From Cafeteria roenbergensis (Eukaryota > Sar > Bigyra > Bicosoecida > Cafeteriaceae): a stretch of DNA of 64,000 nucleotides. The translations under genes were made by a program, and so were the position numbers. Under the pieces are notes generated by a model. That model was not told where the DNA came from. It did no database searches and saw only the letters and a list, made by a program, of their open reading frames with translations. The DNA is taken from assembly GCA_008330645.1 (NCBI GenBank), contig VLTN01000036.1:186001-250000 (forward strand), given 5' to 3'. Of this stretch, positions 2-56,215 are shown in pieces; within the stretch, counting starts at the first letter, position 1, and each line of letters opens with the position of its first letter.

Positions 2-2224
2 GCTGACCCGGCCGCCGCCGCCGCCAGCCGCGCCGCCGAAAAGGCCGCCGCCGCAGCAGCAGCTGCCGCGGCGTCCTCCCGCCGCGCTGCCGCCGCGGCC
101 GCTGCCGCCGCCGAGGAGGAGGACGCCGCCCCTCGCCTTCTGTCCGCGCCCGTGCACGTGGGCGCCCGGGAGGCCGCGGCCCACGCCAAGGACAGCCGCT
201 CGGGCATGCTGGACTTCCTTTGGGGTCGCGAGGACAACGCCTACCTCAACCAGAACAAGGTCACGGAGTACGTCATGTCGGCCAAGGACCAGGAGAAGTA
301 TGCCAAGCGCGTGGACCGCTGGCAGCGCCGGCAGGCTGCTATGGAGCGGAAATCCAAAAAGGGGAGGAGGGGGTACATTGCGCCGCCGCCCATTGCGGGC
401 GAGGCTGCCTCCGGCGCGGGCGGCGCCAGCGCCCCCGTGGACTTCACCCCCGTCTCCGCGGAGGAGGAGGCAGCGGCGGCCAAGAACGTGGATATCGAGC
501 GCTTCACAATGGGCTTCGCGGGCCTGTCGCTGCTTGAGAACACGGAGCTCAAGATCATCCTCGGCCGCAAGTACGGCCTCATCGGCCAGAACGGGTCCGG
601 CAAGACCACGCTGCTGCGCCAGCTGGCCCGGCGGGAGGTGGAGGGTCTCCCCAAGGGCCTGACCATTCTGCACGTGCAGCAGGAGGTGCGCGGCTCAGAC
701 GCCACCGTGCTCGACACGGTCATGGCCAGCGAGGTGGAGCGCGAGACCCTCATGCGGGAGGAGGAGGAGCTGGGCGCCAAGATCGAGGCGCGAGAGGCCA
801 CCATCGCAGCGCTGGAGGCCGACCTGGAGGCCGCCGAGGCGGCGGCGACGGCGGATCCGGCCAAGGCCGAGGCCATCCTCGCGGAGCTCGGGACGCTCCA
901 CAAGCAGGACGACGACGACACCGTGCGCATTCAGGAGATCTACGAGCGCCTGGAGCGACTGGACGCCGCCTCGGCAGAGGCCCGCGCCGCCGAGGTGCTG
1001 GGCGGTCTCGGCTTCTCGACCACCATGCAGCAGCTGCCCACCCGCGCCCTGTCCGGCGGCTGGCGTATGCGCGTGGCCCTGGCCTGCGCAATCTTTGTCC
1101 GGCCAGACATCCTCTGCCTGGACGAGCCGACCAACCACGTGGACTTCCCAGCCATCGCCTGGCTCGAGGACTACCTCTCCAAGTACAAGTCCACTTGCAT
1201 CATCGTCTCCCACGACCGCCACTTCCTCAACCACGTTGCAACGGACATTGTGCACCTGTCGCACAAGAAGCTCCATTACTACAGGGGCAACTACGACGAG
1301 TTCGTCACCTCCAGGGCGGAGATGCTTCGGCACTCCACGCGCGCGGCGGCGGCAGCCGACGCCAAGAAGGCCCACATCCAGGAGTTCATCGACAAGTTCC
1401 GGGCCAACGCCAAGAAGGCGTCGCTCGTGCAGAGCCGTATCAAGGCCCTCTCGCGCATCGACTCAGTCACCGTGGCGTCGGACGATCCGGCGTGGTCGTT
1501 CGAGTTCCCGGAGCCCTCCGACCTCGGCGGGGCGAGCTCCGTCATCCAGATCAAGGACGTCGGCTTCGGGTACGATCCTTCCAAGATGCTCTTCCGCGGC
1601 GTGAACATGGGCATCTCGATGGACAGCCGCATCGGCATCCTGGGCCCCAACGGCGTGGGAAAGTCCACGCTGATCAAGCTGGTCATGGGCCAGCTGGCGG
1701 CCGTGGAGGGGGCGGTCGTGCCGCACCCCAAGCTGGAGGTGGCCTTCTTCTCGCAGCACCACGAGGAGCAGATGGACCTCGAGAAGAGCCCTCTGGAGAT
1801 GCTGGTGGACATCAACCCCGGCACCGACGAAACCGCGGCCCGCGCCCACCTCGGCAGGTTCAACCTGTCCGGGGAGCTCGCCCTGCAGCGCATCGGGTCG
1901 CTCAGCGGTGGCCAGAAGAGCCGCGTGTCGTTCGCGCTCATGTCCTTCAGGGCCCCGCACGTGCTGGTGATGGACGAGGTCACCAACCACCTCGACATCG
2001 AGACGGTCGACGCGCTCATCGGCGCAATCGCCATGTACCAGGGCGGCTTCATCGTGGTCTCTCACGACCAGCACTTCCTCGAAGCCACCTGTACCGAGTA
2101 CTGGGTCATGTCCTCCAAGCGCAAGCTGGAGCGCTGGCGGGGCACGCTGGCGGCCTACCGCAAGATCGCCGAGTCTGAGCGGCCCGTGCTGCAGTTCACG
2201 CACCCGGACGCGGTGGCGGAGTAG
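2..2224 (+). CDS. ABCF3: ABC-F ATPase, GCN20/ABCF3-like (5' end outside window)
   Basis: Cytosolic twin-cassette ATPase without membrane segments; yeast GCN20 and animal ABCF3 act with ribosomes and GCN1 in translation control. The frame is open from base 2, and the codon at 152 is an internal GTG rather than a start, so the N-terminus lies upstream. Cassette 1: Walker A GQNGSGKTT (583-609), signature LSGGW (about 1050-1065), Walker B LCLDEPTNH (about 1107-1136). Cassette 2: Walker A GPNGVGKST (1643-1669), signature LSGGQKSR (about 1900-1923), Walker B VLVMDEVTNHLD (1960-1995). The stretch ILHVQQEVRG after Walker A1 is close to the GCN20/ABCF3 subgroup as I know it. Between the cassettes is a charged linker (about 1310-1450). 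The second Walker B reads DEVT where DEPT or DEPS is usual. The visible upstream part is Ala-rich (GCC repeats). No introns are seen in this part. Stop TAG 2222-2224. Confidence 0.9.
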   Translation, partial: ADPAAAAASRAAEKAAAAAAAAAASSRRAAAAAAAAAEEEDAAPRLLSAPVHVGAREAAAHAKDSRSGMLDFLWGREDNAYLNQNKVTEYVMSAKDQEKYAKRVDRWQRRQAAMERKSKKGRRGYIAPPPIAGEAASGAGGASAPVDFTPVSAEEEAAAAKNVDIERFTMGFAGLSLLENTELKIILGRKYGLIGQNGSGKTTLLRQLARREVEGLPKGLTILHVQQEVRGSDATVLDTVMASEVERETLMREEEELGAKIEAREATIAALEADLEAAEAAATADPAKAEAILAELGTLHKQDDDDTVRIQEIYERLERLDAASAEARAAEVLGGLGFSTTMQQLPTRALSGGWRMRVALACAIFVRPDILCLDEPTNHVDFPAIAWLEDYLSKYKSTCIIVSHDRHFLNHVATDIVHLSHKKLHYYRGNYDEFVTSRAEMLRHSTRAAAAADAKKAHIQEFIDKFRANAKKASLVQSRIKALSRIDSVTVASDDPAWSFEFPEPSDLGGASSVIQIKDVGFGYDPSKMLFRGVNMGISMDSRIGILGPNGVGKSTLIKLVMGQLAAVEGAVVPHPKLEVAFFSQHHEEQMDLEKSPLEMLVDINPGTDETAARAHLGRFNLSGELALQRIGSLSGGQKSRVSFALMSFRAPHVLVMDEVTNHLDIETVDALIGAIAMYQGGFIVVSHDQHFLEATCTEYWVMSSKRKLERWRGTLAAYRKIAESERPVLQFTHPDAVAE

Positions 2225-7386: not shown

Positions 7387-8331
7387 TCACGTCCGGCCCT
7401 TCGCCTCGTCGCCCTCGGTCGCGTCCACCTCGCAGTAACGCACCGCGTCGGACGAGGGGTCGGCGAAGAACTGCTGGAGCGCGAGCCGCCCGACCGGGAA
7501 GGCCAGCTCGTCCCAGGGCAGCTGGCTCTGCGTGAACAGGCGCGCTTCCGCGGTTTCGTGGCCTGCGCTGAAGCGGGTGTCCTCTTGGCCTGGGGGGGGC
7601 GTCGGCTGGCGAAATCGCGCCTTGAACCACAGCATGATCAGGCTGCGCCCGGGCACGGAGTGCACGGCATGAAGGCCGGTCACCTCAACGTCGGCGTTGG
7701 CCTCCTCCAGCGCCTCTCTGGCCGACCCGTCCGCCACCGACTCGCCGTTCTCGAGGAAGCCCCCGGGGAGAGTCCAGAAGCCCTTCCTGGGCTCAATGTC
7801 GCGCCGCAGCAGGAGCACCCTGGGCTCGCCTGTTGCTGGGTCCGCGTCGTGCACGACGGCCCCACCAACGGGAAGCGGGTTGCTGTACACGATCCTGTTG
7901 CACTGCGGGCACATGTCGCGCTCCTTGTCGTCGCCGGGGGGCACCGTTTTCACGAACGCGGGCGGCGGTTGCGCGAGCGACGAGGAGGCCAGCCGGCCCT
8001 GCTGCAGCCCGGCAGCGACGGCGCGCACTGCGGAAGCCACGTAGCAGGTCAGAAGCCACGCCGCGGTGGCGGGCGGAGGTGGGGGCCGGGACGGAGCCGG
8101 GGGGCGAGCCACCCGCTGGCTGGCGGGGCCCTGCAGTGCGAAACGCGGCGCTCCGATTGCCTCCCGGCGGTCCAGGCTCGGCGGGGTCCGGCCCGGCGTC
8201 GGCGCGGAAATGGCGAGCAGCCGGAGGGCGGCCCGGGGCGGGCGATCAGGGGTCCAGCCGGCGCCGCACGCGCGCGCGAGGCCCCCGCTCCGGGTGCGGG
8301 GACGGCTCACCGTGGCCGGGGCGAGCGGCAC
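7387..8331 (-). CDS. NUDIX hydrolase with Zn-ribbon-like CxxC (start uncertain)
   Basis: Predicted nucleoside-diphosphate-X pyrophosphatase. The NUDIX box fits G-x5-E-x7-R-E-A-L-E-E: GGFLENGES, then an REALEE block (about 7720-7790). The usual G near its end is N. Before it lie MCPQC and YSNPLPVGG, like the zinc ribbon and lead strand of plant NUDT23-type FAD/ADP-ribose pyrophosphatases, but only one CxxC pair is visible. The C-terminal part (EARLF, LAF) also fits that subgroup. The first about 100 residues are Pro/Ala/Arg-rich and could be an organelle targeting region or non-coding. The codon at 8331 is GTG, not ATG. An ATG at 8350 is followed by a GTGAGC donor (8310) but no CAG acceptor keeps its phase, so the true start is unresolved. 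Divergent from the amidase-like gene, 215 nt apart. Confidence 0.8.
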   Translation of the reverse strand: MPLAPATVSRPRTRSGGLARACGAGWTPDRPPRAALRLLAISAPTPGRTPPSLDRREAIGAPRFALQGPASQRVARPPAPSRPPPPPATAAWLLTCYVASAVRAVAAGLQQGRLASSSLAQPPPAFVKTVPPGDDKERDMCPQCNRIVYSNPLPVGGAVVHDADPATGEPRVLLLRRDIEPRKGFWTLPGGFLENGESVADGSAREALEEANADVEVTGLHAVHSVPGRSLIMLWFKARFRQPTPPPGQEDTRFSAGHETAEARLFTQSQLPWDELAFPVGRLALQQFFADPSSDAVRYCEVDATEGDEAKGRT

Positions 8332-8546
8332 GCTGCAGGCGCGCCAGCATGGCTCGTTTTCCTGGGCTGCCGAGTTGCCGAGTGCAGAGCCGGGCCGCGA
8401 GCGACCTGCGATCGCCCAAGCGCCGACAGATCTGCCTCGTCATCCGCGGCCGGGACGCCTTCGGGCGGCGCAGCGCCTCGGAGGGGCGCTCCCCGGGGCG
8501 CACTCCAGAGCCCCGCGCCCGGTCGCTCGTCGCGCAAGTCCTCAGG

Positions 8547-10673
8547 ATGGCCGCATCTGGCGACGGTGGCGAGCTCCATGGCATGTACGAGCGGAAGCTG
8601 CGCGCGCTGACCCTGGCCGCCGCGGCCAAGCGCGTGCTGGACCCCAAGCTGGACACGACGTGGGAGCGCTACATCACGGTGTACCTCAGTCACCGCGACG
8701 CAGTGGCCACCGACCTGGCCTGCCTGGTGTCCTCGTACGACCAGGAGGCGCCCCTGTGAGATCGGCAATTGCATTCGCGCACTGCCGCCGTCGCGCGCGT
8801 CCGAGCTCGGGCCGCCGCGGTCCCCGATCGCGCGCGGCCCGACCCCGCCAGTCCCCGCCTCCAGGCGGGGCGCCGACCGCCTCAGGCCTGGGCCGCCGCG
8901 GCGCCCGGCCGGGGCGGGAAGCTGCGCGCTCCGGGAATCCGCGGCGTGGGGGCGGGGGCTGCGCGGCGGTGGCAGTTGCGTCTGGCTCTTGCCTCTCGGC
9001 TGCAGCAGCGTGCCCCCGCCCGCTCCGCATCGGCGTCCCGAGCCTGCGCTCTGGCGGCGCGCGTGCCTGGCTGCCAGTGCCTGTGATTGCCGCTGCGCCC
9101 CCCGCCCCCGGCCCCGCCCGTAAGCCCCCCCCTGAGTGTCCAACGAGGTGGGCGCTTTGCGCCAGTCCGCCACCCCCCCTGCCCGCGCCCGCAGTGCCGC
9201 TGCCCGCGCCCTGGACGCCAAGCAGGCCGACGGAGGGGCGCTCCCCCCGCTCCTGGCAGCCCCCTTTGTCATCGCGGACAACTTGGAGACGAGCGTTGGC
9301 GTCACGTCTGCGGGTCTGTCCTTCCTCGACGAGTGGGAGGCTGGCGTGGACGGGCCGCTCGTTGAGGCAGCGCAGGCCGCGGGCGGCCTGCTCATCGGCA
9401 AGGCCGTGCTCTCGGAGCTCAGCTTCGCCACCACAGGCGTCAACCCGACCTTTGGCACGCCGCGCAACGTGAGTCGGCAAAACATCTCGCAACTATCCCT
9501 CTCGGACTCGACGCTCCCAAACCCCCCGCACAGCTTCGATGCGATGCCCCCGCGACCACACCCCCGTGCTGAGCCCCCTTCCGCGGTGCCACCGCCCTCC
9601 CCACGCAGCCCCACGTGCGCTCCCTCATCGCCGGCGGTGGCGTGGCCAGCGCAGTTGCCGCGCGCTTCGCAACCTTCGGCCTCGGCATCGACGGCCGCGG
9701 CGCCGGCCTGCGCGTGCCAGCCGCGCTCTGCGGGGTTGTCGCCTTTCGCCCTACCATCGGCCGCCTGCCCACCACCGGCTCCATCGCGGTTTCGCCGACC
9801 AGAGACTCGGCTGGCATTGTGGCGCGGTCGGTCGGTGACGCGTACCTGATCGATGCCGCCCTGACTGGCTCTGCCACCGCGCCCGCTCACGAGGCCCTCC
9901 CGGACATGAAGCCTCTGGCAGGCATCACGCTGGCCAAGCCCACGGGCGGCTTCTGGGACGACCTCGACGAGGGAGTCGCTGCCGAAACCGCCAGGGCCAT
10001 CGCCACGCTCGAGTCCAAGGGCGTCACGTTTGTGGATGTCGACGTCGATCCTTCCGCCGCCAAGGGCCCCGGCGGGGAGCCCTTCGGAGAGTCAGCGTCC
10101 GTCGCAACGACAGCCATCGCGACCTCCCGGGCCATCGGCGCAGCGCTCGACGGTCGCGAGGCCGTCACCGCCGTGTCCGAGTACTTCTGGGAGCGCGGGG
10201 CGCGCACCTCGGTGCTCGACATCGCCGCGGCTGTGCTGGCAGAGCCGACGCTCTCGCGGCTTCACGCGCAGCTCCGCAGCGACCGCAGCGGTTTCGCGTC
10301 GCTTGCGGAGTCGCTGGATGCCACGGTGCGCGGTCGGGAGGCGCTCAGGGTGTCTCTCGCCGCCGCCATGGCCGACGCCGGCGCCGTCGCGATGGTGTGG
10401 CCTGCGGTTTCGCGCCTCCCTTGCACGCTCGCGGAGGCGGAGGCGGACGAGGGCGGGGAGCTTGACGCCGCCTTCGGGCGCAACGCAAGCGTGGCCGCCA
10501 ACGCTGGCATGTGCTCCGTGGTGCTGCCGTGCGGGGCGGCGGGGTCGGGGGCGGCGCGGCTGCCGGTGGCGCTGGAGCTGGCGATGCCTGCAGGGTCGGA
10601 CGAGGAGCTCCTCGCTGTGGCGCGGGCCGTCGAGGCGGCTCTGCCGGCCCCGCAGGCCCCCCGGGGTCTCTGA
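8547..10673 (+). CDS. Amidase-signature-fold protein lacking the nucleophile (Toc64-like)
   Basis: Exons 8547-8755, 9195-9468 and 9609-10673, 515 residues; both introns are GTGAG...CAG (phases 2 and 0). Exon 1 alone looks like a 70-residue ORF, because its stop TGA overlaps the donor; splicing gives a continuous amidase N-terminus ending in a normal DN loop (PFVIADN). The amidase fold is seen in GKAVLSEL (the Lys, K139), GTPRNP across intron 2, GIDGRG, RVPAALCGVVAFRPTIG, DSAGIVARSVGDAYLIDA, and LPVALELAMPAGSDEELL near the end. The nucleophile Ser position in the GTDxGGSxR motif holds Gly/Ala (A193-G194), and the Ser-Ser of GGSSGGS is replaced by V-A. The closest pattern I know is the inactive amidase domain of the plastid import protein Toc64/OEP64, but no TPR domain follows. 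A binding or scaffold role is more likely than catalysis. Confidence 0.85.
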
Positions 10674-11185: not shown

Positions 11186-13640
11186 TCAGAGGTCGTCCTC
11201 CAGGCCGTCCGCGGCCATGAAACCGCTGTTGCGCAGGTTTTCGCCGAGGATGATCTCCTTGCAGTTCTCGAAGAGGAACTTGACGTTGTCCTTGTCCGTG
11301 GCGGTGCTGAAGCGGACTGACACCGGGTTGATGGCGCCCTCGACGGTGCGGTCGGGGACCTGTGGGAGGGCGGTGGTGGGGCGGTGGTGGGGCGGTGGGG
11401 CGACGGGGCGGTGGTGGGGCGGTAGTGGGGCGGTAGTGGGGCGGTGATGGGGCGGTGGTGCGTCACTGTCTGCCTGCGGCGCAAGAGTCGGTGGTGCAAT
11501 TGCGTGCAACGGAACTCACCCGGCCCAGGAACTCCTGCCTGAAGAACTCCTTGGCCTCCTCGAGGCGCGCAGTCCACTCCTCAGCGTCGGCCTCCTTGTC
11601 CAATCCCTCCAGCGTCTCGCCGTCAAAGTGCGGGAAGCGAGCGGCCTTCCTGCCGTCGAAGGCCACGTCGTCCACGTCCACAGCGCCGCCTGCCGCCGCG
11701 GCGTCAGCGGCGTCGGGGACGTAGCGGATGGGAATGCCCGCGGCCAGCTTCTCCTCGAAGAGGTCACATTTGTTCAGGAAGAGCATGATCGGCTTCTTCT
11801 TGAAGAACTTGCTCTCGGCAATGTCCTCGAACAGCTCCAGCGCCTCGTCGATGCGGTTCCGGCTTTCGTCCTGCGCACGCGGGCCGGGGGGCGGGGGAGG
11901 GCGGGTGGGGGGAGTGGGGGGGGGGTTGGAGGGGGGGGAGACTTGGGCGGCTAGTTGGGACAATTTTGCGGCGGAATGGGGCCAGGCTTTGCTGCGAGTT
12001 TCAGCCGCTGCCGCTGCCGCTGCCGCTGGCCGGGACGCTGAAGGAACCAGTGCCGCAGCTCACCTCCAGCAGCACCTGATCGTACTCCGAGATGGCCGCC
12101 ACGAAGATGAGGGCGTTGACGCCGTCGAAGGCGTGAATCCACTTCTTGCGCTCGTTGCGCTGCCCGCCAACGTCATACATCTCGATGGGCGTGTCGAAGA
12201 TCGTGTAAAGCTCCGAGACAATGCCCGTGGTCCGCACGCGGGCGCGAAGGACGTCGTCCACCGTGGGGATGTACCCGGGCTCGGCCTGCTTCTTGGCCCG
12301 GCTGAGGAAATAGGATGCGCAGTCCTCGAGCTGGAACTCGCTGCGGTGGGCGAAGGCGCTCTGAATGCCGGTGTCGGACCACACGGCCGCAAGGTTTTCG
12401 GCCATGGTGTCGTCGAGGCAGTCGGGGTCCGCCACAGCGGCCATGACCTCGTCGGAGGCGTCGGTGTTGTCGATATCGAAGCCGAGGCGCGGGGCGTTCT
12501 CGATGAGAGTCTTGGCGGCCGCGATGGTGTTCGCGGCAATCACCTGCGGGTCGCAGTGAGGGAGAGCGGGGTGGGGGGGGGAGTTGGACCAGGGGGACAG
12601 GGCCGGGCAAGCGAACAGGTGTGCCGGCCGCGGGCGGCGAGCAGCAGGCAACTGCTCGATGGCTCACTGGCCGCATGGCCGCGCGCTCCTTGTCCGAAAA
12701 GCCAGCTCCGAACAGCACCTTCATCTGCTTGAACAGAGTGGACTTGCCGGACTGGCCGGCTCCCAAGCTGTGGTAGGGGTGGGAAGGGGGCGCGGGGAAG
12801 GGCCGGGGCAGTCGGGCACGAGGCTGCAAACACGTATCAGGTCGGCGGCCACGAACTCGGCAGCGCGGCGGATCAACCGCCACAGTGGGATGTAGGATAA
12901 AGCAAATTGATGGCCTGAAGGCCTGGGAGGAGGGCTCCGGAGGGCGGGCACGGCGTGCTGCGCTGCCTCACAGCAGAAGCTGCGAGGGGAAAGAGGCAAT
13001 CACGAGCACCGGGCGCAGAGAGCGCGAGAGTTGGGCGGGATACGGCGCCAGAGGCAAAAAAATCGGGACTGATCATGGCGGGGGGCATGATGGGGCGCTT
13101 CAGCCTTGGCGGAGCAGAGGGGAGCGCCGCCCATCGGCGTCGCGGCCTCACCTTGATCTTCTCCTCCTCTTGCCGGCCGCTTGTCATCATCTGCGGGGAC
13201 AGCGCCGGGCCGGCGGGGTGGGCAGACGCGGGAAAGGGAAGGCAGGGGTGGACGGCTGCTTGCAGTGCTGTGAGGGGGGCTGAGGGGGGCGGCGCACGGT
13301 GCGAGTATGGTCGCAGCGGCGGCTGTGCAGGTGCTGGCAGCAATCGCGTTGCATCGGCTGCGGCCGAGCCGCGCCGCGCCCCAGGCCGTGGAAAAGCCCC
13401 CCCGGTCCCATGGCGCCACACCGTGAGTGACCTTTGAGCCTGCCACTGCGCCTGGGGCGGCTGGGGCGGCCCCAGAAGGCTGGCGGCGGCCGGTGCTGGC
13501 CGCTCGATCGACGGGTGCCGGACAAGCCGTCGCGTTGGGGCTGCCGCCGCCGCCCCCGCGACCGCGCCCCTGAGCCGCGCACTCACCGCCTGGTCGATCT
13601 TGGACGTCGTAGCATCTGTCGCCGAGGCGCAGATGCCCAT
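11186..13640 (-). CDS. Heterotrimeric G-protein alpha subunit (7 exons, one of 8 nt)
   Basis: GTPase switch that couples receptors to effectors at the plasma membrane. Exons in transcript order: 13640-13587, 13190-13152, 12979-12972, 12767-12668, 12543-12064, 11870-11520, 11359-11186. All six introns are GTGAG...CAG. Protein 401 residues. It starts MGICAS, giving Gly2 for N-myristoylation and Cys4 for palmitoylation. The P-loop LLLLGAGQSGKST (32-44) is completed only by the 8-nt exon. Switch I region VLRARVRTTGI; switch II DVGGQRNERKKW (from D191); NKCD (260-263); STAT (362-365) in place of TCAT. The alpha-helical domain is inside exon 5. Between NKCD and the alpha-G helix there is an Ala/Asp-rich insert (AADAAAAGGAVDVDD). 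After the usual final residues LRNSGFM, nine more (AADGLEDDL) follow. There is no Cys four from the end. One GAAACCGC motif overlaps the C-terminal codons. Confidence 0.95.
11370..11459. repeat. G-rich repeat inside the last G-alpha intron
   Basis: Imperfect decamers of the type GGGGCGGTGG or GGGGCGGTAG repeated across about 90 nt of the intron 11360-11519. G runs are on the + strand, so the G-alpha transcript is C-rich here. The spacing could allow a G-quadruplex in the DNA + strand. Confidence 0.7.
12972..12979 (-). other. 8-nt coding microexon of G-alpha
   Basis: CTTCTGCT on the - strand, preceded by CCCTCGCAG and followed by GTGAGG. Joined to exon 2 (ending ATC AAG) and exon 4 (starting CTTGGGAGCC), it gives I-K-L-L-L-L-G-A-G-Q, exactly the universal G-alpha beta-1 strand and P-loop. 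Without it the reading frame shifts and three of the four Leu are lost. Confidence 0.85.
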
Positions 13641-14626: not shown

Positions 14627-17600
14627 TCACCCATGGCCCCCCAATCCATCGCTCCCCTGCATTGCGAGCCGCGCCCTGCCCGCCAGCAGCACCTTGGCGG
14701 CCTGCGTGAACCCCATTCGGTGGAGGGCGGCAGCAGTCTGAGCGAGGGTTGCACCGGCGTCCGCTCGGGACAGGGGGCCAGCAGGAGGGGCCATGTCGCC
14801 CCAAACTGTCGCTGGCTCGTGGCGCAGAGAGTCAGCGATGACGCTCGAGAGGCCGGCTGCTGAGGCCGCCACTTGCTCGGCCGCGGCCGACGCCTTTGCC
14901 TCTGCCTCGGCAACAGCAGCCTGTGCGGACGCTGACTGCGAAGCTGCGTCTGCGTCTGTGGAGGGGTCCGGACCACCGTCGCGACCGGCTCTCCCAGCGG
15001 CAGCAGCTGCCCGCATGGCCAACACGGCGGCATCATCCGCAAGCGCCAGCGCCGCCGTCGCCACATCTCCCAGCTCTGCCAAGGCCACCGCCCACGGCGA
15101 CAGGTGGCCCCCTGCTGCCCGCGCCCTCAGCCTCGCAAACGCATCAGCTGCCGTCGCGCCCTCCCCACGAGCGGCTGCCGCCCATCCCAGGCGCAGCAAC
15201 ACCCTGGCCTCCACAGAGGGCGACGCTGCCCGCCGCGGCACAAGCGCGGGAAGTGGCAGAGCCGGTGAGCGACGGCCTGCAGACTCCGCTGCAAGGATTT
15301 GGCGAAACAAATCGCCGGGAGACATCACTCCGACATCTGTTCCAGGCCCGTCGCGCCGATGCTGTCCCTCGTCAGTTCCAGGCCCGTCGCTCTTTCCGTC
15401 GAGCGACGCCGGCTCTGCAGGCATTGGCACAGCAGAGCCTGGAAGAAGGATCGGTCCACTCAACGACGACGAAACCGCTCCCAGCGCCCCAACCCAGCTT
15501 TGCCCGCCCAGGGCTCTGCCGACCGACGACGCGACGTGACGCCCGGCCAAGCACAGCGATCTGGCCAGCAACAGGCCGGACGACGGTGCGTGGCCCAAGG
15601 GACCGTCAGCGGTGTCGCCGTGTCCGGCAGAGCGTGCAGAGCCGCCCTCTTGCCCTGCGACTGCCGCTGCGGCTGCAAGGCAGCTGGCCAGGTCATCGCC
15701 GCGACGGGAGGTTCCGACGGTGGTTCCGAACCACCGAGCAGTGGCAGCCCCGACCCCGAGCCCCCCGGGGCCTCCCGTGCCAGGCAGGCAGGCGCCCAGC
15801 GACGGACCACCACTCTCCCCGCTCATCGCTGCGCCGTCAAGCAGAGCCGACAGCGCGGCGCTGTCAGCTGACACCGCCAGCCTCACTGCCTGCGCCACTG
15901 CCCGCTGGCGTCGCTCGGTAGCCCCTGCGCCAGGGCCGCCATCCGCACCGCCACTCCCGTCGCCCGGACGGGCAGGGAGCTGCTGCGACTCGCGGTGGGA
16001 CTCGGCGAGCAGAGCCGCTGACGCGAGGAGGCGGCTGGCTGCCTTCCACCCAGCGGCGCTCAGCGGAGCGCCGAGCGACGCGTCGTCGCTCGTGGATGCG
16101 TCTGCGATCGCAGGCAGTGCCGCTCGCACGTCAGCTGACCGGAGCACCGCCACTGCCAGAGGAGCCGCGCCCCTCGACGATGCGGGCGCGATGGCTGGGT
16201 GACTGGCACGAGACTGGCTCCCGACGTCCGCGTCAGACAGAGCTGCACCTCGGTCACGAGGCAGGCGGCGGTCCAAGCTGTGGCAGAACGCAGACTGGGT
16301 CGTGACGTCGTGTCCGTGACTGCAGTCAGACTCGAAGGTGACTGATGGCTCAAAATCGTCCGGCTGGTCGGCAGCGTCGACGAAACCAGCTCTCGCATCG
16401 CCGGCGCCGGCGCCGGCGCCAAAGCCGTCAGCCCGTGACGAGGCAGGCCCTGTATGGCCATGGCGCTGCCCGTGAGCGCCGCTGATGGTGGTGCCTGCAC
16501 GGACGAGAGGGCTCGGCTCACGGCCCACAGGCAGCCGCTGCTGCTGTTGGTGCGGCTGGTGGTGCTGGTGCTGCTGGTGCTGCTGTGCGAGAAGAGAGGA
16601 CGACGGCCGCAGCCCGTCCGGCGTGCGCGGTGCGAGCGACACCGCGTCGCTCAGATCCGCCCGCCACCAGCCCCAGTGCAAGCCTGGGCCCCGACCCCGC
16701 AGGATCAGCTCTGCCGGCGCCTCCGCGGCCAGCGCTGATCCAGGAGCTGCCAGCGACAGCGCCGCTGCGGCCGAGGCCGCGATGCCCTGACTAAGCAGAG
16801 CTGGACGTTCGGCAGAGCTGGACGACGAGGAGGCGGCGCCGCCGCTGCCATCAGCGGACAAGCCCGCCGACGCATCGCGGGTCGGCTCGGCGGTTTCACC
16901 AACGGCGTTGAGAGACGCGGCAGCCGCTGTCAGCGCTGCTGCCAGACGGCGTGGCAGATGGCGTCGCACGGTGGCAGCTGATGCAAGGCTGCCTCCGCGG
17001 TCCCTGCCGTGAGCTGCGGGGTGGGTCGCTGCCACGGCGGGGGCTGCGGACGACGGAGGGTGCCCCCCAGGCGACGGAGGTCTGAAGGCGTTCGCTGACG
17101 GGGGCAGCCGCCCCGCGTGGTCGGCTGGCTCCAGCTCGGCGATGGACGTCGCCGCAGCAATGGCTCTGCCGGCAAGAAGCAGGCCAGCTGAGCGGAGCGA
17201 CGCCCGGCAGCGCAAAACCGCTGCCCCGGAAGGAGATTCAGCCGTGCCGGGAGGCGTGCCGGACGCGTCGCCGAATATGTCGGCTGCGGCCGTGTCGAGG
17301 ATCTTGAGCGACGCGGTGGGGCGGCCTTGCTGAAGCGTCTGACCCGCAAGCGCGACGCGGGCAACCAGCGCCAGAGACGAAACCGCCGTCGGCTCCGAGG
17401 CTGCCCTGGCCAACGCGTGCGTCGTGGCGTGCGGGTGGGCAGAGCTATGCGCAACGCGTGCCGCTGCCAGCCAGAAGGCCGCCCTACAGGACGACGGCAG
17501 GGACTCCGCGTCGGCCTCCCACTCCGCACCTGTGCGAGCAGCTGATGCGGCGGACGTGTCAGCTGACATGACCGAGGCCGCGATGGCGTGACCTGCCACC

Positions 17601-20600
17601 CGGGCTGCAGCGGCAGCAGCCGCCGCTGCAGCGGCGTCGGCTCGGTGCGCAAGTGCCCGCAGCAGCCCCGACAGGCTGGCCTCCACTGAAACCCGCAGCG
17701 TCACTCGAACTGCCCACAGGCCGTCGGCCCCACCCGCCGCAGCAACTCCCCCTCCCGGAGGCGAAACCGCTTGTCGGGAGGCCTTGGTCTGGCAGAGCCA
17801 ATCCGCAACTGCAGCCTCAACCTCGGCAGGCAGCTCCAGGTGCCGAAGTGGCGATTGTGATGCACGCTTGACTGGCTCTCGACCCGAGGGTGATGCCATC
17901 CCTCCCGGGTGAGACTTCTGACCCGCCGTCGGGCCCCAATCACCAGCCAGTCGCTCCTCGCTCAGCCCGCTCCCGGCCGCGTCGCGTTGAGCACCTCCCA
18001 GCGACACCACGTCGCTCACCATCGGGCCCCATGTCAGCTCTGCCACGGATATGTCAGCCATCACCTGGTCGACGGCGCGGCGTTCAAGCAGCTGCAGTTG
18101 CCTGCAGCGACGAAGCTGCCTCCAGCTCTCGGGTTGAGCGCGCTGGCGCCGGCCCGGCCTGATGCGGAGGCTGCTTCGAAGCTGCAGCCACACGTGCTGG
18201 ATAGCACGCGGCTGGCCTGGCGCGGAGTCAGCGCCAGCGGTTGCAGTTGCGTTGGGGTCAGACACCGTGGCGTTGACAGTCCATGCCTGCCACCGCCGCC
18301 AACACGCGCCCAGGCCCACGTGCTCGCCAGACGGCGGTTTCGCACCAGCTCCGCCGGTGTCAGGAATGCTGTGACCGGCATCCATCACCGCCGCATCAGC
18401 GGCGGCAAGCCTCCACGCACCGCTGGCAAGACCGTGGCGGCCGGCAGCGACATAGGCTAGGGCCAGGCGATGGAGCCGGACCACGCGGGATAGCGACCCC
18501 AGCCGCGGCTTGAGGGCTGGTGACGCCGGCGCACCGGGCGGCCCCGCAGCGCGACTCGCCGGCTGCGGCGGCTCCACTGTCAGAGCGCTCACCCTGCTTC
18601 CGAGCAACGGCCCGCCCACATCGACTGCGGCACAGCCTACCGGCAGAGCCGTGGCAGCTGACGGGTGCTGGTCCGTGGAGTTGGAAACCACCGTGACGGC
18701 TCTGCCGACGTCGGCGAAGAATGGGGCGACCGCTGCCGATATGGCCGAGCTGCCGCCGCCCAGTGACGCCGCTCGAGCGGTTTCACGAGGCAGGAGCGTG
18801 TGGATCCTGTCGTGGCTGGCAGGGCTGTTCGAAGCGAGCGGATCACATCCCAGCGATGGGCTGAAGCACAGAGCCCACGTCGGTGCTGTCCCTGTGTGCG
18901 GCTCTGCAGGTGTCGCTGCCGCTGCCTCTGTCCTGGAATCTGTTGCCGTCACTGCCGCTGCCGCTGCCGCTGCCGCTGCCGCCTCTGCCGCCTCCAGCGT
19001 CGCAATCACCCTTGCAGCGTCAGCACCGCCGGCCCGCGCCGCAGCCAGCCTGCGCGACACTGCTCCTCGAAGCTTCTTGTGCAGAGCCGCAAGCGCCTTG
19101 GCGGGCATGGAGCGCCGCCCAACGCCGCTTGCAACTTGCGGCAGAGCTGGAAACGGCTGGCCCCGGTGAGCCGGCGAAACCGCAGCAAGCTCTACTGCGT
19201 TCCATGCCGCGTCAGCCGATCGGCGCCACACCCACGGGTCTGCCGACACTGCGTCGCTGAGCGAGGCGGCGGCCTCCGCCGGCGCCGCTTTGCCAGACAC
19301 GCACAGCGCTGCAGGCGCGCCGCATCCGTCCGCCCACGCCGCGCTGCCCACCATCGCCGGGAGTGCGGCCAGCGGGGGCGAGACGGAGCGGGTTCCCGGG
19401 GGCGCGTCCGGGGGTTGCGCCGAAACGCTTGCAGCGGCGCTGGCGGCGCCAGCGAGCGTCACAGCGTCTCTCACATGCTGGCTAGACTGACTGGTGACGG
19501 ACTTTACCACAGCGGGGGTCAGACCCGTCAAGCGACCCAGCCACTCCGCAGCTGGAACGGCCAGAGCGGCCGCATCGCCGGCGTCGCTAGGACTGTCTTG
19601 GTCCGGCGTCGGCGACGGCTGAAGGCGACGGTGATGGGCCGCTGATGCCTCTGCGATTGCGTACAGAATTCCGTTGACGGATGCGTCATTCGAGACGTCG
19701 GCGAGCAGAGCCAGAAGTGACGCCGAGCGAAGCTGCCGCAGCGCTCGCGCACGTGACGCGGACATGACTGGAAGCTGATGGTGGCGCGTCCGATCGAGAG
19801 TCGTGGCGCTGATTGTCTGCGCCCGGTGCCGTGGAGGTCGGACAAGGCTGGCCAGTGGGCTCTGCCAGGCGCCAGCGTGGCAAAACACGCTTGCAGACGC
19901 ATGGCCGACCGGTGGCTGCCCAGTGGCCCCACCGCCGCCAACGCTTATGCACGCTGCTGTCGTTGTCGTCGTGGCTGCGTCGGGTGCGAGCGGTGCTGGG
20001 GCGGTGCCTGACGTCGCCTCCGCATCAGCAGCACCATCAGCATCAGCATCAGAGGCAGCATCAGCATCGGCATCAGCATCAGCATCAGCATCAGCGGCAG
20101 CTGCGGCGGCAGCCGATGCTGACAACGCCGCCTCGGCCCACACGGCGGCACCTGCATCCGCCGCTCGCTGGGCAAGGCCTTCTCTGGCGATTTCGTCCAC
20201 GTCGTCCCCCCAGTCACCGCTGGCAGCGGCATCCGCAGTGTCTGGACCGACGTCACTATCGGCCGGAGCGCCGGGAGAGGCGGCCCCACCTTCGCCGCAG
20301 TCGTCCCCGTCGGCGCAGCTGGCATCGCGCTGTCGCGATCCGACGCCGTCGGCCGGCCGGCCGGCTCGCGGATCCCCGCTGGCAGAGCGGCTTCCGCTGG
20401 CGGCTGGCTCTTGTCGCGATCGCCTTGCCACTGCAGCGTCAGTGAGCTCCTGCACACGCTGCCGCAGCCTCGCACTCGCCTCCCACGGCAGAGCCGTCAC
20501 CCCGAGGCACACCGCAGAACCGTCCTCGGAGGCGTGCACTGACGAGCACCAGCCTCCCGTCACGATGGACGACGCAGCGTGGTGTGAAACCGCGGCAACT

Positions 20601-23600
20601 GCTCGCGCGTCGGCAGCTGCCACCCACGCATCGGCCAGCAGCGTCGCGTTTCCAGAGCAGCTGCAGCCGCCCTCCTCCTGATCGAGCTCTTCGTTGCTCG
20701 CTGCGGTTTCGCCGACGAACAAGCTCAGCTCCGCAGCGGTCGTGGCCATATCAGCAATCACCTGATCCGGCAATGGCGCCAGCCGCGGAGGAACCGTTGG
20801 CCAGAGGCACGGTGGCGGCTCGACCACGTGCAGAGCCGGGCGAAGCGCCTCAAGGTCACTCCACGTTGCCAGTGATGCGGCGCGGGTGGGAGACGATGCC
20901 TGCGCAACTGCGTCGGCAGACACCGATCGCGCTCGCACAGCCGCCGCTGCGGCTGTTGACACGGCAGAGGCCCACCGCCGGATCGATGCAGGGCGCGCAG
21001 GGGTCGCCTCGTCGGTGCCCGTCGAGCCGCCACGCGGTCTCCCGCCCGAGATACGGCTCTGCCACGCTGCCGTTCGGTCGACGAAGGAGAAGGCTGCTCG
21101 CGAGACGGCCTGCACGTCAGTGCTTGGCTGGCCACAGACCGCGCATCGCGTCGAAGCTGAATCGGGAGAATCGCGGGGAGAAGTCGCACTGCCAGACGCA
21201 GGTCGAAGCGCCTTCCTAGCCCGATGCAGCGCACCCAGAACCTGCTCCACCGAGAGCCGAAGCGAGTGCACGCACATGCCCAGCCGCAGCAGCGGCGATG
21301 GTGGCTCTGCCGCTTCGTCGTCGATTGCCGAGCCTGTGTCCGGATGACTTGAAAACGCTGTCGCCGCCGATGCAGTGGCAGTTGCATTCGCAGCTGCATC
21401 TTGTGACTGGAACAGCGAGGTCTCGCTGCGGTTCCCGGCCAGTGCCAGCAGCAGGGGCTCTGCATCACGCCGCAGCTGCCACGGCGTAGCCCGGCCAGCG
21501 GCGGAAAGAATCGCCGAGACCGAGCGACCTTGGGACACCACGGCCCATGCCAATGCGGTGACCGCTTCCACCAGTGCCGAAGCGCCGGCAGCTGACTGTG
21601 AAGACGACGCCTGAAGTCTGTATGGAGCCCACACCCAACCTTGGTCGATCGCCTGAGCAGTAGAACTGAGCGCTTCTGACGCCCGCTGCAGCCAAATAGC
21701 GGCTTCGCGTGACCACGGCTGGACCGCTGCCATGGCACCGCGGGCAGCTGCTGCCCAGGCAGGCACACGAGACAGCTCTGCCCAGGCCAGGGACCTCCTG
21801 TTGGTGGAGGTGTTGTTGCACCGATGACCTTCATCGCTCCCCGGATCGTCAGCGTCAGCGTCGGCGCGATCACCGGAGGCAGAGGCCGTGCGGGTGCCTG
21901 GCTGTTGGCACGGCGCATTTGCCGCCACTTGAGCCTGGCGAATCACCGACAGCAAGGCGTTGCCAGTGAAGCGAAGCGAAGCAGCAGAGTCGCTGACGAA
22001 CCGAGGCACCCGCTCCCAAGCAAAGGCTGGCCGCGAGCCAGCCACTCTTGAGCCAGACAACACGCCGTGAAGGCGCCGCGACCACAGGCTGTGAGGGTCA
22101 GAGACACCTGCCCCGGGCCGCCAGCGGCGCCGCACGTTGGGTGCTTGGCCGCTGGCGGCATCGCGACTTGTGGCGGGGGCGCCTGTGGTTCCAGCCGGAG
22201 TGTCGGCTGCACTGAAGCGTTTGGCTCCAGAGCCTGACAGCACAGCGATCGCCATGCGATTGGACCAAGACGCAACGGACGAGGCATCCATGGTGGTACC
22301 GTGCGGAGCACGGACGATGCCCCTGCGAAGGCGCTCGGACCACGCCCTTGCAACGGTCCAAATCGGACCAGCTTTCTGCCGAGCTGCCGCTTCCAAAAAC
22401 GCCCTTGCTGCCCCGTGTTGAATCGAGTCCGCGTCAGTCCCACGGTCGCCGCTTGCGTGCCTGCCAGTGCCGTTGCCAGCTGGCTGGCCAGGGCCCCCTC
22501 CAGGACCCGCTGCTCCGGCCTGACTAGACCCTGCCGCTCCGCTGCGGCCCTGCCCGCCGCCTCGGCCATCCTCGCCATCACCGCCTCCGTCATCTCTGCC
22601 AAAGAGCGAGGATCCGTGCCCCGTCACCACGGCATCAGCGACCGCCGCAGCGTCCAGCACGCTCACGAACCGAGCGGCGCTGGCTCGAAGCAGAGCCACT
22701 TCCACCCCCAGCTGAGGGAAGTCTCCGGGAAACTCGCGCAGAGCATTTCCTGCTGCTTCCAGCGCAAGCAGCAGCGTTGCTCGAAGCAGCGCGGGCCTGC
22801 CGGCGCCGGCTCGCGCGCCAGCGCCTCGCTGCTGGCGGTCCGGGTTCCAGGTGCCGGCCGAATCAGCACTTGCCGTCGACGACGTCAACAGTCGGTGGGC
22901 GGCAACCACCGATTCCGCAAACGCCCGCCACCACCGCTGCGGCGAGTCGCCGTCGCCCGGCGATGCGGTGTCGTCCAGCGACGGTGCGCCCCCTCGGCTC
23001 GTGCGGCTGGGACGCGCGCGCCGGGGCGACGGTGTCGACTGGAGCCGTTGCTGGAACAGCCCTTGCGATGCCTCCTGCTCGCTGGCCAACGGATCAGCGC
23101 TTGCATGGCCTGCTGTCGGGCTGACGACAGGCCGAGACGATGGCGCAATGACCTGTGCCTCCCAGGCCTCCTGGGCCGCAGCTGCAGCCGCAGCCGCTGT
23201 GGCTAGGAAGCACCTCCCAGCACGTGACACCGCCACGGCAAGACGCTGGCGCCGGGCCGCCGGCTGAGAGGCGTCGCGGCTTCCAGACGCAAACGTGCTC
23301 CCAGGCAGGGGCTGCTCGTCGCCGTCGGCGAACAAGCCGCCGTCGTCATCACCGTCCTCCCCAAAGCCTGCGACTGGCTCTGCCGACCCTTCCGACAAGC
23401 CTGCCAGCCGAGCGGCGGCAAGGTTGTCCACAACATCGCCCTCGCCCGGGCCACCTTGGCGGGACGGACCAGCCTTGTCGGCCGTGGCCCCAGCGCTCGC
23501 ACCTTCAACTCGGTCGTCGTCGGGGCGGTTCTGCCAGCTTGAGCCGATGCGCGTTCCCCAGGCACTGTCACCACTCCGCGCGGAGGCCGAGCCTGGCGCC

Positions 23601-26600
23601 TCTGTCGATGTTCCGGAGCCGCCAAGGCCAAGACGCCACGCTCCAGCCACGGCGTCCTCCATGAGCGATGCCGCGTCGCCCACGCCCCCTCGCCCCAGCA
23701 GTGCGCCCACCATGAGCGATGCGGCTCGGCTGCTCCACGCCTCCGCCAGCGCAGACGACGGGCAGAGCCGCTGGCGCGAGCTGACTGAGCGTGCGCTGTG
23801 GTCGGCCACAACCAGCCCCGGTGTGGCGCTGCGCGCGTGCGACGTGCCGCCGTCACCCCGCTGGCCACTGCTTGGGGCGCCGGCACCCGAGGCGGCGGCG
23901 CGGTCCGCCGATGCTGCATGAGCAGCTGACGAGTCGGTCGCCAGGCCATCGTCGGGCAATCGGTGTCCCATCATCGCTTGCGCAGTCTGCCTCTCGTTAG
24001 ACAGCCGCCTCGCTGAGGAGGCGTTGTGCAGTGGGGGCCAACCCGGCAGAGGCGAGGCCTCCGCGGCTGCTTCGGCAGCGCCCGGCACAGCCGAGGCGTC
24101 ACAGTCCCGCACTAGGCGTAGGAACGCTAGCTCTGCCGGAAGCAGCGCCGCGCGAGCGTGCCCGTGTTTGCGGTGCGTCAGCAGCGCCGGGCAGGTCGGC
24201 TCTCTGCTGGGGCCAGCGCCGGCTGACGTGGAACCGGAGTGGCGGTCCGATGTGTCGTCGCTCGATGTTTCGGCCGCAAGCTTGCCGCCAGGCTGCAGGT
24301 GGCGGGAGCTTTCGCGCCCTGTGTCCTCGCCCATGCTGCTCAGGGTGTCTGCGCCTCCCAAAGCGCCCTTGAACTCGGATTCGGCGCCGGACTCCAAATC
24401 TGACTCGGAGTCGCGGCCAAATACTGGTCTGCCGCTCGCCCGCGGGTCGGAGCTCCCTCCGCCGGTCAGTGTGCGCACCGCAGCGTGCAGGGCCGCAAGC
24501 CCTCGAGAAACTGCTGCCGCAGTCTCGCAGGGCCGGTCGCCGTTGGCTTGGCCGCCGGCACCGTTGCTGCGCCAGTCCGGCGAGGTCCACGCAGCGAAAC
24601 CGCCCAGGTTCCAGCCGTCCGCAGACGAGCCCGACCATAGCTCTGCCACACTCTGCCGGGACCCAGCCCCCGTGAGGCCAGCGCCCGCGGTGACGCCGCA
24701 TGCCTGGCGCGAGAGCCGGCCCCATGCCCTCGCCGCGCGGGCAACGTGGCACCGCCCGTGCGCTGACGAGCACTCCGTGCAGAGCCAAGCAGAGGGCTCT
24801 GCCGGAGGGACCAACCCGGAGTCTGTCTCTGTCCAGTTTGGGGATGATTCCGCGAAACCGCCAACGCAAGCATCGGCGCCCGCGTGCCCCGATGCAGAGG
24901 ACACTGTTGCTCGAAGCAGGAGCAGAGCCGTCGGAAGAGCTCTGCCGGATGAAACGTTGGCCGGAGCCAGCCGTCCAAAGCATGCGTGAAACTGCGATGC
25001 CTCATCGCTCAAGGCGGGCCCATCCACCAAGAGAGAGAGACACGGGTTACTCTGCAACGCAGCAAGCGGGTTTTGCCCCGCGCGTTGGACGGTGTCTCCA
25101 GCAGCGGCGGCTAGTGCTCTCCCACCAGGCAGAGCTGGTGCACTGCGTGCAGACGCGCCCGCGGCGTCACCGCGCGCCGTGCCCAGAGCACTCTGCTCAG
25201 CTGATGCGAGGTCTTTGATCATGCCGGCTGCGCGCGGCGCTGCCGCTGCGAGGAGGCAGAGAGCTGGTGCGGATGCGCCACAGCCGCGAGCTGGTGCGGA
25301 TGCGCCACAGTCGTGAGCTGGTGCGGATGCGCCACAGTCGTGGGCGGGGAGCTGACCGTCCGCCGCTGGGCCTGGGGAGCTGTCCGCCGCTGGGGGCGCC
25401 TTGCTCTCGTCACTTGTCCAGGCTTGCGGGCCAGACGGCGCCTCGTGCGGGGCAGCCCAGAGGCGGTGGAGCGGTTGGACTGCCACCGCTCGCACATCGG
25501 CCCAACGCCTCACCGAGCGGGCGCGGCCAGCCAGCCGTCGGAGGGCCGCTGCATGGACGGACGACTCGCTGCAGCGCTGGCAGCGCGAGGCATCTGCGCC
25601 TGCGCAGCCTGCGAGCCGGCCGACGGCGGAGCGCATCACCGAGTGAGCAAGGCCCGACCGCGTGGCTGCCACTCCCTCGAGCGAGTCAGAGCTCCGCTCA
25701 CTGAGCCCCGCATCGTCAACGGTGCCAGCCTCAGAGCGTGAGCTGGGGCCTTGGCGTTCAGAGGCGCGGCCTGCACCGCCCCCGCACCGGCTCTCAATTG
25801 CCGCCAGACCACGAGAGGCGGCGTGCTCCACAGCGTAAGAGGCCTGTGCCGCTGCGCGCAGCAACCGCCAAACCTCCGGCCGAGCGCCGCCGCCCGGCCC
25901 GCGCCCTGCTGCGGCGTGGTCCCAGCTGGCCCTCCGGCCGCCGACGCCGTCGCTGTGCCCGCCACCACCATCACTTGCAGCGCCACTGTCAGCCGACCAC
26001 TCCACGAGCGCCGACCTGGCCGCAACCACGGACGCCGGCGCCAGCAGCCACTCCGCCGCCTGCCCCGACCAGGCGACCGACCCAGCCAGGTTGGCTAAGC
26101 CCTCCGCCACCGCCACCACCACCGCCGCTTGAGGCGCCGTTGTCGTGCCGCCGCTCTCCTCCCCCCCGACGAGAGACCGTGAAACTCCCAGCGCGCGCAG
26201 AGCCGCCCCCGTGCGTCGTGAAACCGCCTCAGGATCCTCCTCCCCACCCTGCCAAGCCGCCTGCGCAGCCGCGTCGCGGGAGGGCTCGCCGGCAGCCGGC
26301 CCCGCCACACCCCACCGCACTGCCCGCAGCGCGTCCGTCGCCCCGGCCAGCAGCTGGCCGGCCGCTGCCCCGCTGCCCATCCTGCCAGCCGCGCCCGCTG
26401 CCAGCGCCAGAGCCGCCGCCCGACGAGACGATCTGTGGCCCCAGCAGCGCACACCGGCTGCCGCGGCGAAATGAATCGCCGACGCCCGCCACTGGCCCCG
26501 CACAGCCGCGCTCAGCCCGCTCACCCATGCGCGGTCACACCCCGACGGCTCCCGTGGCTCCGACCCCCGCCGTGTCCGCGCTCCTGTAGAGCCCTGGGCT

Positions 26601-28292
26601 CTGCTGGCAGAGCCCCCGTCCCCGACCGCGTCCATCACGCCGCCATCGGCATGCTCGCCCGGCACCTGCAACGCTGACCGCAGCAGCCACTCCGCAGCGG
26701 CGCCACCCAGCCGACGCGCGTCGGACTCTGTCGTGGTGCACGGCTGATGCCGAAGCGACGCCTCGGCTTGCGCGTCGCCGGATTGCCGGCGGGTGGCGTT
26801 AGTCGCGGCTTCCGCCGCTGCGCTCACCCACCACGGCGCCAGGCCGTCGGCGAGCGATGCGCACCCGCCCCACCCACCAACTTCGGACTCTGACGACTTG
26901 CCCGGGGCGCAGCCACCGTCCTCCGAAGAGGCGCTGCTCCCGGCTGCGTCGCGGCCGGAGCACGGCGCGCGGCCCTGCGCCGCTCCCAGCCTCAGCCTGT
27001 GCATCCGCGCCAGCACCCCAGCGATCTCGTGCATCGGGCCGCTGTCCCACGCAGCGAGCGGACCTGTGTTTGTCCCGACAGGCGGGGCCGCTGCCCCGGC
27101 CGCCGCGCGGCTCTGGTTGCCGGCTTGCGCCCCGGCACTCCAGGTATCGGCCGACGTTGTGGCCGCCCGAAGGCAGTCGGCCACCGACCAGCGACCGGCG
27201 TGGCACGCGGCCAGCGTCATCAGCATCCACGGCGGAAGGCCGGACGGACTGCGGGCGAAGTCACAGCCACGGACGCGGACGCGAACACTTGACACGCGCA
27301 GCGGCAGTTGCGCAGGCGCCGGGAGCCGCGCGCATGTGCCGTGGCGCGCGCGCAGCCGCGGGCGGTTCAGGCCACGCGGAGGCGCTCGCCGCGCTGCAGC
27401 AGGAGCGACGCCGCCGCGCCCCCTGCCGCCGCCACAGCGACGACGACGAGCGCCACGCGGCCGGGCAGTGGGCCGGCCAAGCTGCATGGGCCGACCCCCC
27501 CACAGCAACCGCCCGCCTTCTCCGCCAGCCCCCCGCTGGTCCGGCGACCCGCACCGGCCACCCCCCGGCAACCACGCGCAATCGCGCCCCGGCGCAACGG
27601 CGCGGCCTGCCCGTCCTGGGCGCCGCGGCGACCACGGCACCCCGCCACGCCCGTGGTATAGAAGAGGAGGCAGCCGCACGGGCCGGGGCGGGCGGGCCAA
27701 GCCGCCCGCCGAGGCGTCGAATCGGGAACTGCGACCGCTCTGCCGGCGCCGCCTGCATCGCGACTGCCATTTCGTGCCCAGGCAGCCCCGGCGGGCCCAG
27801 CAACGCAAGCAGCGGCATCCGCCCTCCCCCCACGCGGCCACGGCGGCTTGCCACCCGTCCAGCATCCGGCCCCGTGCGGGCGAGGGGGGATGGGGAATCG
27901 GTGCTGCTGCGCGCCGGGCCTTGCCCGACTCGTGGCGAGTAGCGCTTCGGTCCCCGCAGCGCGCCCCAGCAATCTCACCAGGCAAGCCTCTGCACGTGCC
28001 ACGCGACGACACACGCCCCGCTGTTGCCGGGCTCCAACATCCCGCCGCTGGAGCGCTCGGGCGTGCCGTCGGCATCCCTTCGGCTGCGCACTCGCAATTC
28101 GCCCAGCGCTCCTAGCAGCGCCCCTCCGCCCGACCTGGCCGGTGCCGCGCCGTCATGACGCGAAGACGAGCTGTTTCCAGCCGCTCCGGTCGCCTCGCCG
28201 CTCACCAGGGCTGCAGGAGCGCTGGTCGTCGCCGCTGTCAGCGCCAACAAGACCAGCGCTCTAGCCAGCCCGGCCCCCACGCCACGCCGCAT
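14627..28292 (-). CDS. Giant protein of about 4,300 residues, probable signal peptide, helical-repeat character
   Basis: The frame is open without a stop from 28075 to 14627. I propose exon 1 at 28292-27979: ATG, then hydrophobic LARALVLLALTAATTSAPA as a signal peptide, then an N-S-S sequon. It is spliced (GTGAGA...CAG, phase 2 to phase 2) to 27248-14627, giving about 4,311 residues. Between 28075 and 27248 the giant frame is Arg/Pro/Gly-rich noise, which supports an intron there. The body alternates Ala-rich amphipathic helices that read like TPR or HEAT-type repeats (for example LPPWMLMTLAACHAGRW near the start, HRMGFTQAAKVLLAGRARLA near the end) with Ser/Gly/Asp-rich low-complexity loops. 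One WLCTEC and one RCAVCG cysteine cluster are visible. A 27-bp repeat (25261-25341) encodes AHDCGASAP units. I recognise no catalytic domain and no family. An alternative start is ATG 27226. Many GGCTCTGCC and GAAACCGC motifs lie inside. Confidence 0.7.
25261..25341 (-). repeat. 27-bp minisatellite in giant gene 1
   Basis: Three units of 27 bp starting at 25261, 25288 and 25315 (+ strand GAGCTGGTGCGGATGCGCCA...), nearly identical. In the giant frame each encodes a nine-residue unit close to AHDCGASAP, so the length change is in frame. Confidence 0.85.
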
Positions 28293-34370: not shown

Positions 34371-34684
34371 TGCGCTGCGGCGCCGTTTGAGGCGGCTCCC
34401 TCAGCGTTGAGCTGCCTTCCGGCGGCCGGCGGTCCGCGCCGAGGTGGGGGCGTTGTGATCGCTGCCGTTTGTGCGCGGTGCGTGCGCCAAACCGGGTGCT
34501 TGCGGGTGCAATTGATGCGACCGTCGCTGGGCTGCCGACCGGCCTCGCGAATTATTCGTCCCTGGGTAAATATTCGGCACCGGCCGGGACGATTGACCAA
34601 GGGCCTGGCCCGCGCAGAGCCGGGCCTGCCGCAGCCGCGCAGGCGCCGCGCCGGGCTCGCCACCGGTCTAGGACGGCCCGAGGG
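34371..34684. promoter_or_regulatory. Divergent promoter region, methyltransferase / PLBD
   Basis: 314 nt between two divergent ATGs. It contains two A/T blocks, GAATTATTCG (about 34550) and TAAATATTCGG (34567-34577), the latter about 108 nt before the PLBD start. The orientation of the boxes cannot be assigned. Confidence 0.4.

Positions 34685-56183: not shown

Positions 56184-56215
<32 letters not shown>

Follow-up and report, generated by a model that had tools for sequence, protein, structure and literature searches.

A stretch of 64,000 nucleotides (nt) of the genome of Cafeteria roenbergensis (assembly GCA_008330645.1, contig VLTN01000036.1, positions 186,001 to 250,000; here called the window, G+C content about 70%) contains on its minus strand a G-alpha gene with a predicted coding exon of only 8 nt. 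The species is named C. burkhardae in a later paper (PMC8547959). The 8 nt at 12979-12972 are almost certainly a real exon, and they would very probably form an obligatory coding exon of an intact gene, joined to its neighbours by ordinary splicing of two introns. The joined coding sequence, comprising seven coding exons, is an open frame of 401 amino acids (aa), and all six introns (6/6) start with GTGAG and end with CAG. The coding exons and the two introns that flank the microexon are as follows, in 5' to 3' order:

13587..13640, minus strand: coding exon 1, 54 nt, MGICASATDATTSKIDQA, found with the in-genome G-alpha paralogs L009, L010 and L011 as alignment guides
13152..13190, minus strand: coding exon 2, 39 nt, MMTSGRQEEEKIK, ending with AAG in phase 0 (...EEEKIK), donor AAG/GTGAGG
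12980..13151, minus strand: intron 2, 172 nt, acceptor TTGCCTCTTTCCCCTCGCAG, with seven consecutive T at 13062-13056
12972..12979, minus strand: 8-nt coding microexon, CTTCTGCT, phase 0 to phase 2, encoding Leu-Leu-(Leu)
12768..12971, minus strand: intron 3, 204 nt, donor GCT/GTGAGG
12668..12767, minus strand: coding exon 4, 100 nt, starting C/TTG GGA GCC in phase 2 and encoding the last Leu codons and GAGQSGKST
12064..12543, minus strand: coding exon 5, 480 nt, carrying RVRTTGI and DVGGQ, supported by paralog-guided alignment
11520..11870, minus strand: coding exon 6, 351 nt, carrying NKCD, complete with the L011 guide and shorter with other guides
11186..11359, minus strand: coding exon 7, 174 nt including the stop codon, carrying STATD and the C-terminus, its final 30 nt uncovered by the L011 guide

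The predicted product is a G-alpha subunit, as indicated by its coverage of the Pfam G-alpha profile (positions 3-333 of 333; 323.1 bits, cut-off 48.8) and by the presence in its translation of GAGQSGKST, RVRTTGI, DVGGQ, NKCD and STATD, which we take to be the GTPase boxes. Its top match among solved structures is Gi alpha-1 (E 1.9e-74, among the best 60 of 377 matches), and it is 41% identical to human GNAI1 over 343 positions. The P-loop sequence (in 12767-12668) has Gln at the position of Glu in GNAI1 and in four G-alpha paralogs of the same genome, and the C-terminus (in 11359-11186) ends with ...ENLRNSGFMAADGLEDDL, a short acidic tail that extends past the end of GNAI1.

It is extremely improbable that the gene is a copy in decay, or that faulty assembly mimics a gene with a microexon. 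The gene is represented by a single assembly and its GAGQSGKST motif departs from GNAI1 at the Gln residue, but the 401-aa frame persists over seven exons with its identity to GNAI1, and all six introns have GTGAG...CAG borders. Gene decay is unlikely because the GTPase boxes are present in the translation, and a pseudogene was rejected on account of the intact frame together with these motifs.

Evidence for the microexon

On the minus strand, the 8 nt are preceded by ...CTCGCAG and followed by GTGAGG. Placed between exon 2 and exon 4 (predicted spliced string AAG-CTTCTGCT-CTTGGGAGCC), they yield AAG CTT CTG CT/C TTG GGA, which encodes KLLLLG, such that the protein reads K-LLLL-GAGQSGKST; they complete the first beta strand and the stretch that leads into the P-loop, and they restore the reading frame. 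The initial annotation, which had proposed an 8-nt exon at this place, proved exact in its coordinates, sequence, phase, flanks and junctions, including the CAG/GTGAG borders and the restored KLLLLGAG. The element has the attributes of a microexon: it is internal, not longer than 15 nt and located between two introns (172 and 204 nt) with splice sites, it supplies coding sequence and phase that the gene needs, and it goes beyond a chance match in comparison with shuffled sequences.

A purpose-written protein-to-DNA spliced aligner, which allows GT-AG introns in three phases at a fixed intron cost and neither favours nor penalises short exons, called the exon at 12979-12972 when guided by GNAI1. 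The same guide erred elsewhere in the gene, adding a spurious first exon (14195-14137), placing the start of exon 2 at 13179 rather than 13190, and ending exon 6 early. The 8-nt exon was also called with three of the four in-genome G-alpha guides (L009, L010 and L011), of which L011 recovered exons 1-6 exactly and exon 7 except for its last 30 nt, and L009 and L010 deviated from the model in exon 6 and where exon 7 begins. Once the 8 nt were masked, the score fell from 591.1 to 572.7, exon 2 was dropped, and the model began with LGAGQSGKST.

Dinucleotide shuffling of the intervening DNA gave a maximum score of 586.8, none of 500 shuffles reaching the real score of 591.1; some exon of 10 nt or less was called in 19 of these 500, never at the real score. 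A strict pattern (AG followed by two Leu codons, CT or TT, and GTRAG) was absent from 20,000 mononucleotide shuffles (0/20,000), and a relaxed pattern that accepts any GT as the donor occurred in 19 of 20,000. On both strands of the 64-kb window, the single match to the strict pattern is the 8-nt exon.

Two observations weigh against the existence of the microexon: the exon model is a prediction from genomic DNA, and the alignment guided by the fourth paralog, L012, omits the 8 nt and joins exon 2 to exon 4. Both would fit a gene with no microexon, in which another exon or other splice sites are used and the Leu strand is encoded elsewhere or absent. This explanation is very improbable, given that KLLLLGAG is completed exactly between canonical splice sites, that masking left no model of equal score and lost exon 2, and that the alternative products are defective. 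Direct joining of exon 2 to exon 4 causes a frameshift after Lys31 and a stop after 187 aa, retention of intron 2 places exon 4 out of frame, and retention of intron 3 brings a stop directly after KLLL; other joining and retention were rejected on these grounds. Because the products of skipping and retention are broken, inclusion of the 8 nt appears to be needed for a working G-alpha. A length that is not a multiple of three, and a skip product that stops after 187 aa, could also suit a regulated on/off switch, in which skipping would yield a truncated protein and a decay-prone mRNA and so tune the amount of G-alpha; we regard such a role as improbable.

Other short exons in the genome

The genome searched consists of 36,303,456 bases in 167 contigs. 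Human reference proteins, whose sequences may contain small errors, were aligned to 51 of 83 loci (L001-L083); the 32 unaligned loci were extra exons of genes already covered, family members of weak similarity, G-alpha hits that overlapped, and a primer locus. Forty-four of the 51 aligned loci and the window gene make up a survey of 45 genes with 80 called introns and 43 internal exons. L028 (0.35), L034 (0.39) and L036 (0.36) were dropped for their identity, a cut that was not strict, as L060 (0.38) and L081 (0.39) were kept; L030, L031, L058 and L061 were dropped as second loci of genes already included. No internal exon of 30 nt or less was found in these seven dropped loci. GTGAG is the donor of 65 of the 80 called introns and GTAAG of none (0/80). 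Sixty-four of the 80 introns combine GTGAG with CAG and form the canonical set used for comparison; the remainder probably include some aligner artefacts.

Two of the 43 internal exons do not exceed 10 nt, namely the 8-nt exon of the window gene and a 5-nt exon of an alpha-tubulin paralog. The resulting rate (4.7%, exact 95% interval 0.6-15.8%) comes from a non-random sample and is a guide only, because some genes in the sample are near copies of one another (three beta-tubulins, two EF1A, two actins) and because the window gene, from which the search started, is counted. In 740 runs that shuffled intron interiors in the 37 genes with introns, a single false exon no longer than 10 nt appeared outside the two microexon genes, whose own were kept by design. 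The Arf1-like gene L013 has an internal exon of 29 nt at 1574-1602. The tubulin gene is located as follows:

region of G000:C12:519565-520833, minus strand: alpha-tubulin paralog L054, exons 767-775, 931-950, 1164-1168, 1306-1337 and 1495-2763

The exon series of L054 is ATGCGCGAA, 20 nt, CCAGG, 32 nt and 1269 nt, with the product MREIILIQLGQAGVQTGNACWE, so that its first codons are split over exons of 9, 20, 5 and 32 nt. CCAGG and its neighbours form GGC CAG GCC, encoding the GQA of the GQAG motif, which is regarded as universal; in the other alpha-tubulin gene, L053, a single exon spans the place of GQAG. The alignment score was 1963.5, as opposed to 1955.4 with the 5 nt masked, and the best of 500 shuffles reached 1963.4 by a different model; an exon of 10 nt or less was called in 1 of these 500 shuffles. 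Because this margin is small, the 5-nt exon rests mainly on the motif and its canonical splice sites. The suggestion in the initial annotation that other genes may hide similar exons was thus borne out once only, and by a thin margin. The G-alpha and alpha-tubulin cases make it probable that very small exons genuinely occur in the Cafeteria genome and are easily overlooked.

Splice signals and a proposed order of intron removal

The introns that flank the 8-nt exon (172 and 204 nt) are similar in size to the survey median of 202 nt. Among the 64 canonical introns, the acceptor before the 8-nt exon ranks first (1/64); the donor of exon 2 is 21st and the acceptor of exon 4 is 43rd. The seven-T run of intron 2 is the longest T run in the set, the runner-up being five. 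The acceptor rank, the T run and the donor ranks suggest that the spliceosome can define intron 2 and take it out alone. In the proposed mechanism, the ordinary spliceosome would remove the two short flanking introns separately and in succession, each being recognised across the intron: intron 2, with its strong acceptor, may be removed first, whereupon the 8 nt would end an exon of 47 nt, and their weak donor would then pair with the exon 4 acceptor. Separate, successive removal of both introns is, by a modest preference, the way in which we suppose that the exon is spliced. Intron definition with PRP-40 has been proposed for the microexons of Caenorhabditis elegans (PMC8378409), and the Cafeteria genome has one FF-domain locus (47.9 bits), which would fit a PRP40-like protein, other FF proteins being possible.

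To the two observations already set against the microexon, three must be added that bear on how it is spliced. Its own donor, GCT/GTGAGG, is the weakest of the set (64/64). The 5-nt exon of L054 does not have the pattern of strong acceptor and weak donor, because its acceptor ranks 44/64 and its donor 14/64. In plant microexons, the upstream intron is more often delayed and the downstream intron more often removed first (PMC8831610), and the order guessed here is therefore the reverse of the plant tendency.

The main rival explanation, which we consider less likely, is that exon definition applies to the same 8-nt exon, driven by strong signals in the upstream intron that form a local exon island, as reported for human MPC1. 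The initial annotation had held that so short an exon is beyond the reach of ordinary exon definition, which is too strong a statement, since the constitutive 4-nt exon of MPC1 is reportedly spliced by means of exon-definition signals in its adjacent introns, needing just 67 nt upstream and 6 nt downstream (PMC9929638). Exon definition would be consistent with an acceptor that is the strongest of 64 and a seven-T run, unmatched in the 64 introns, approximately 76 nt upstream. Against it are the shortness of both introns, which is the usual setting of intron definition (PMC8378409), the weak donor of the 8-nt exon, and the 5-nt tubulin exon, which lacks these features.

Three candidate generalisations were rejected. 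That microexons in general follow the strongest acceptor holds for G-alpha and fails for the tubulin exon; a T-rich flank is not a common feature, as the 12 longest T runs listed include none from the introns of the tubulin gene; and a branch point signal (seven matches to CTNAY versus none to the mirror pattern in 64 introns) is too thin to use.

Paralogs and possible origin of the split P-loop

The paralog with the highest identity to the window gene is L011 (48% over 365 positions), followed by L009 (46%). L009, L010 and L011 resemble the window gene in having an intron within the short stretch before the P-loop glycines, but each has a single intron there, in phase 1, which interrupts the first Gly codon of the P-loop, whereas the window gene has two introns, one immediately behind the Lys codon and one 8 nt further on, and none at the site used by the paralogs. 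The second of these is 5 nt upstream of the site in L009, L010 and L011. L012 has no intron at the P-loop site. Mammalian GNAI genes share the phase-1 P-loop intron site. The simplest story of the origin of the microexon would be that an intron was gained just after the Lys codon, beside an older P-loop intron that was displaced or replaced, trapping the 8 nt between them. L009 and L010 (G000:C33:89195-90265 and 97230-98243) are 69% identical and are located approximately 7 kb apart on one contig, probably as the result of a local duplication. A search of viral contigs found no relatives.

Comparison with known microexons

Microexons of 1-15 nt have been reported from plants (2,398 in 10 species), where the introns around them are apparently removed one after the other (PMC8831610). 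The exon of the window gene is like those described there in its size class, as a presumably constitutive coding exon that restores the frame and is easily missed by annotation, and in the signals of its flanking introns, including the T-rich flank; it is unlike them in belonging to a stramenopile, in its position, in being predicted from genome data, and in its gene, the host genes named for the plant microexons being others than G-alpha (PMC8831610). It resembles the 4-nt exon of MPC1 in its presumably constitutive use, a length that is not a multiple of three and a strong upstream acceptor region, but differs in the sizes of its flanking introns (PMC9929638). With the animal microexons that depend on PRP-40/PRPF40A it would share the proposed intron-definition route, and an FF-domain locus is present in its genome, but those microexons are neuronal and larger, up to 27 nt (PMC8378409). 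The methods of a paper on Creolimax include a search for exons of 3-15 nt. No report of a microexon in the window gene or its lineage was found in the literature searched, which mostly excluded subscription papers and preprints.

Other open frames in the window

Elsewhere in the window, open frames match the following families:

2-2221, plus strand: ABC transporter ATPase
7390-8439, minus strand: NUDIX
9573-10670, plus strand: amidase
34391-38536, plus strand: phospholipase B
58956-60668, minus strand: metallophosphatase
61265-62329, plus strand: pyridine nucleotide-disulphide oxidoreductase

Long stop-free frames are also present on the minus strand at 14627-28111 (4494 aa) and 43434-58067 (4877 aa).

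Implications for Cafeteria

Exons of 1-15 nt are already known in plants and animals, and the Cafeteria G-alpha case adds another of that class. The Cafeteria genome paper reports 1.67-1.89 introns per gene, with gene models made by use of BRAKER, Augustus and splice sites from HISAT (PMC6972860). Two microexon candidates have now been identified in one small protist genome, both within nucleotide-binding motifs. We tentatively suggest, as something a little short of an even chance, that Cafeteria, a heterotrophic stramenopile with short introns and GTGAG donors, harbours a good number of unnoticed constitutive exons of 5-10 nt, some of them in the universal nucleotide-binding motifs of its GTPases, which would be spliced by routine intron definition that owes nothing to the microexon programmes of animals and plants. 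If transcripts agree, gene models may be wrong at decisive sites such as the P-loop, and intact proteins may seem to be truncated or frameshifted. If true, this would offer a unicellular system with short introns for studies of how small an exon can be, free of neuronal regulation.
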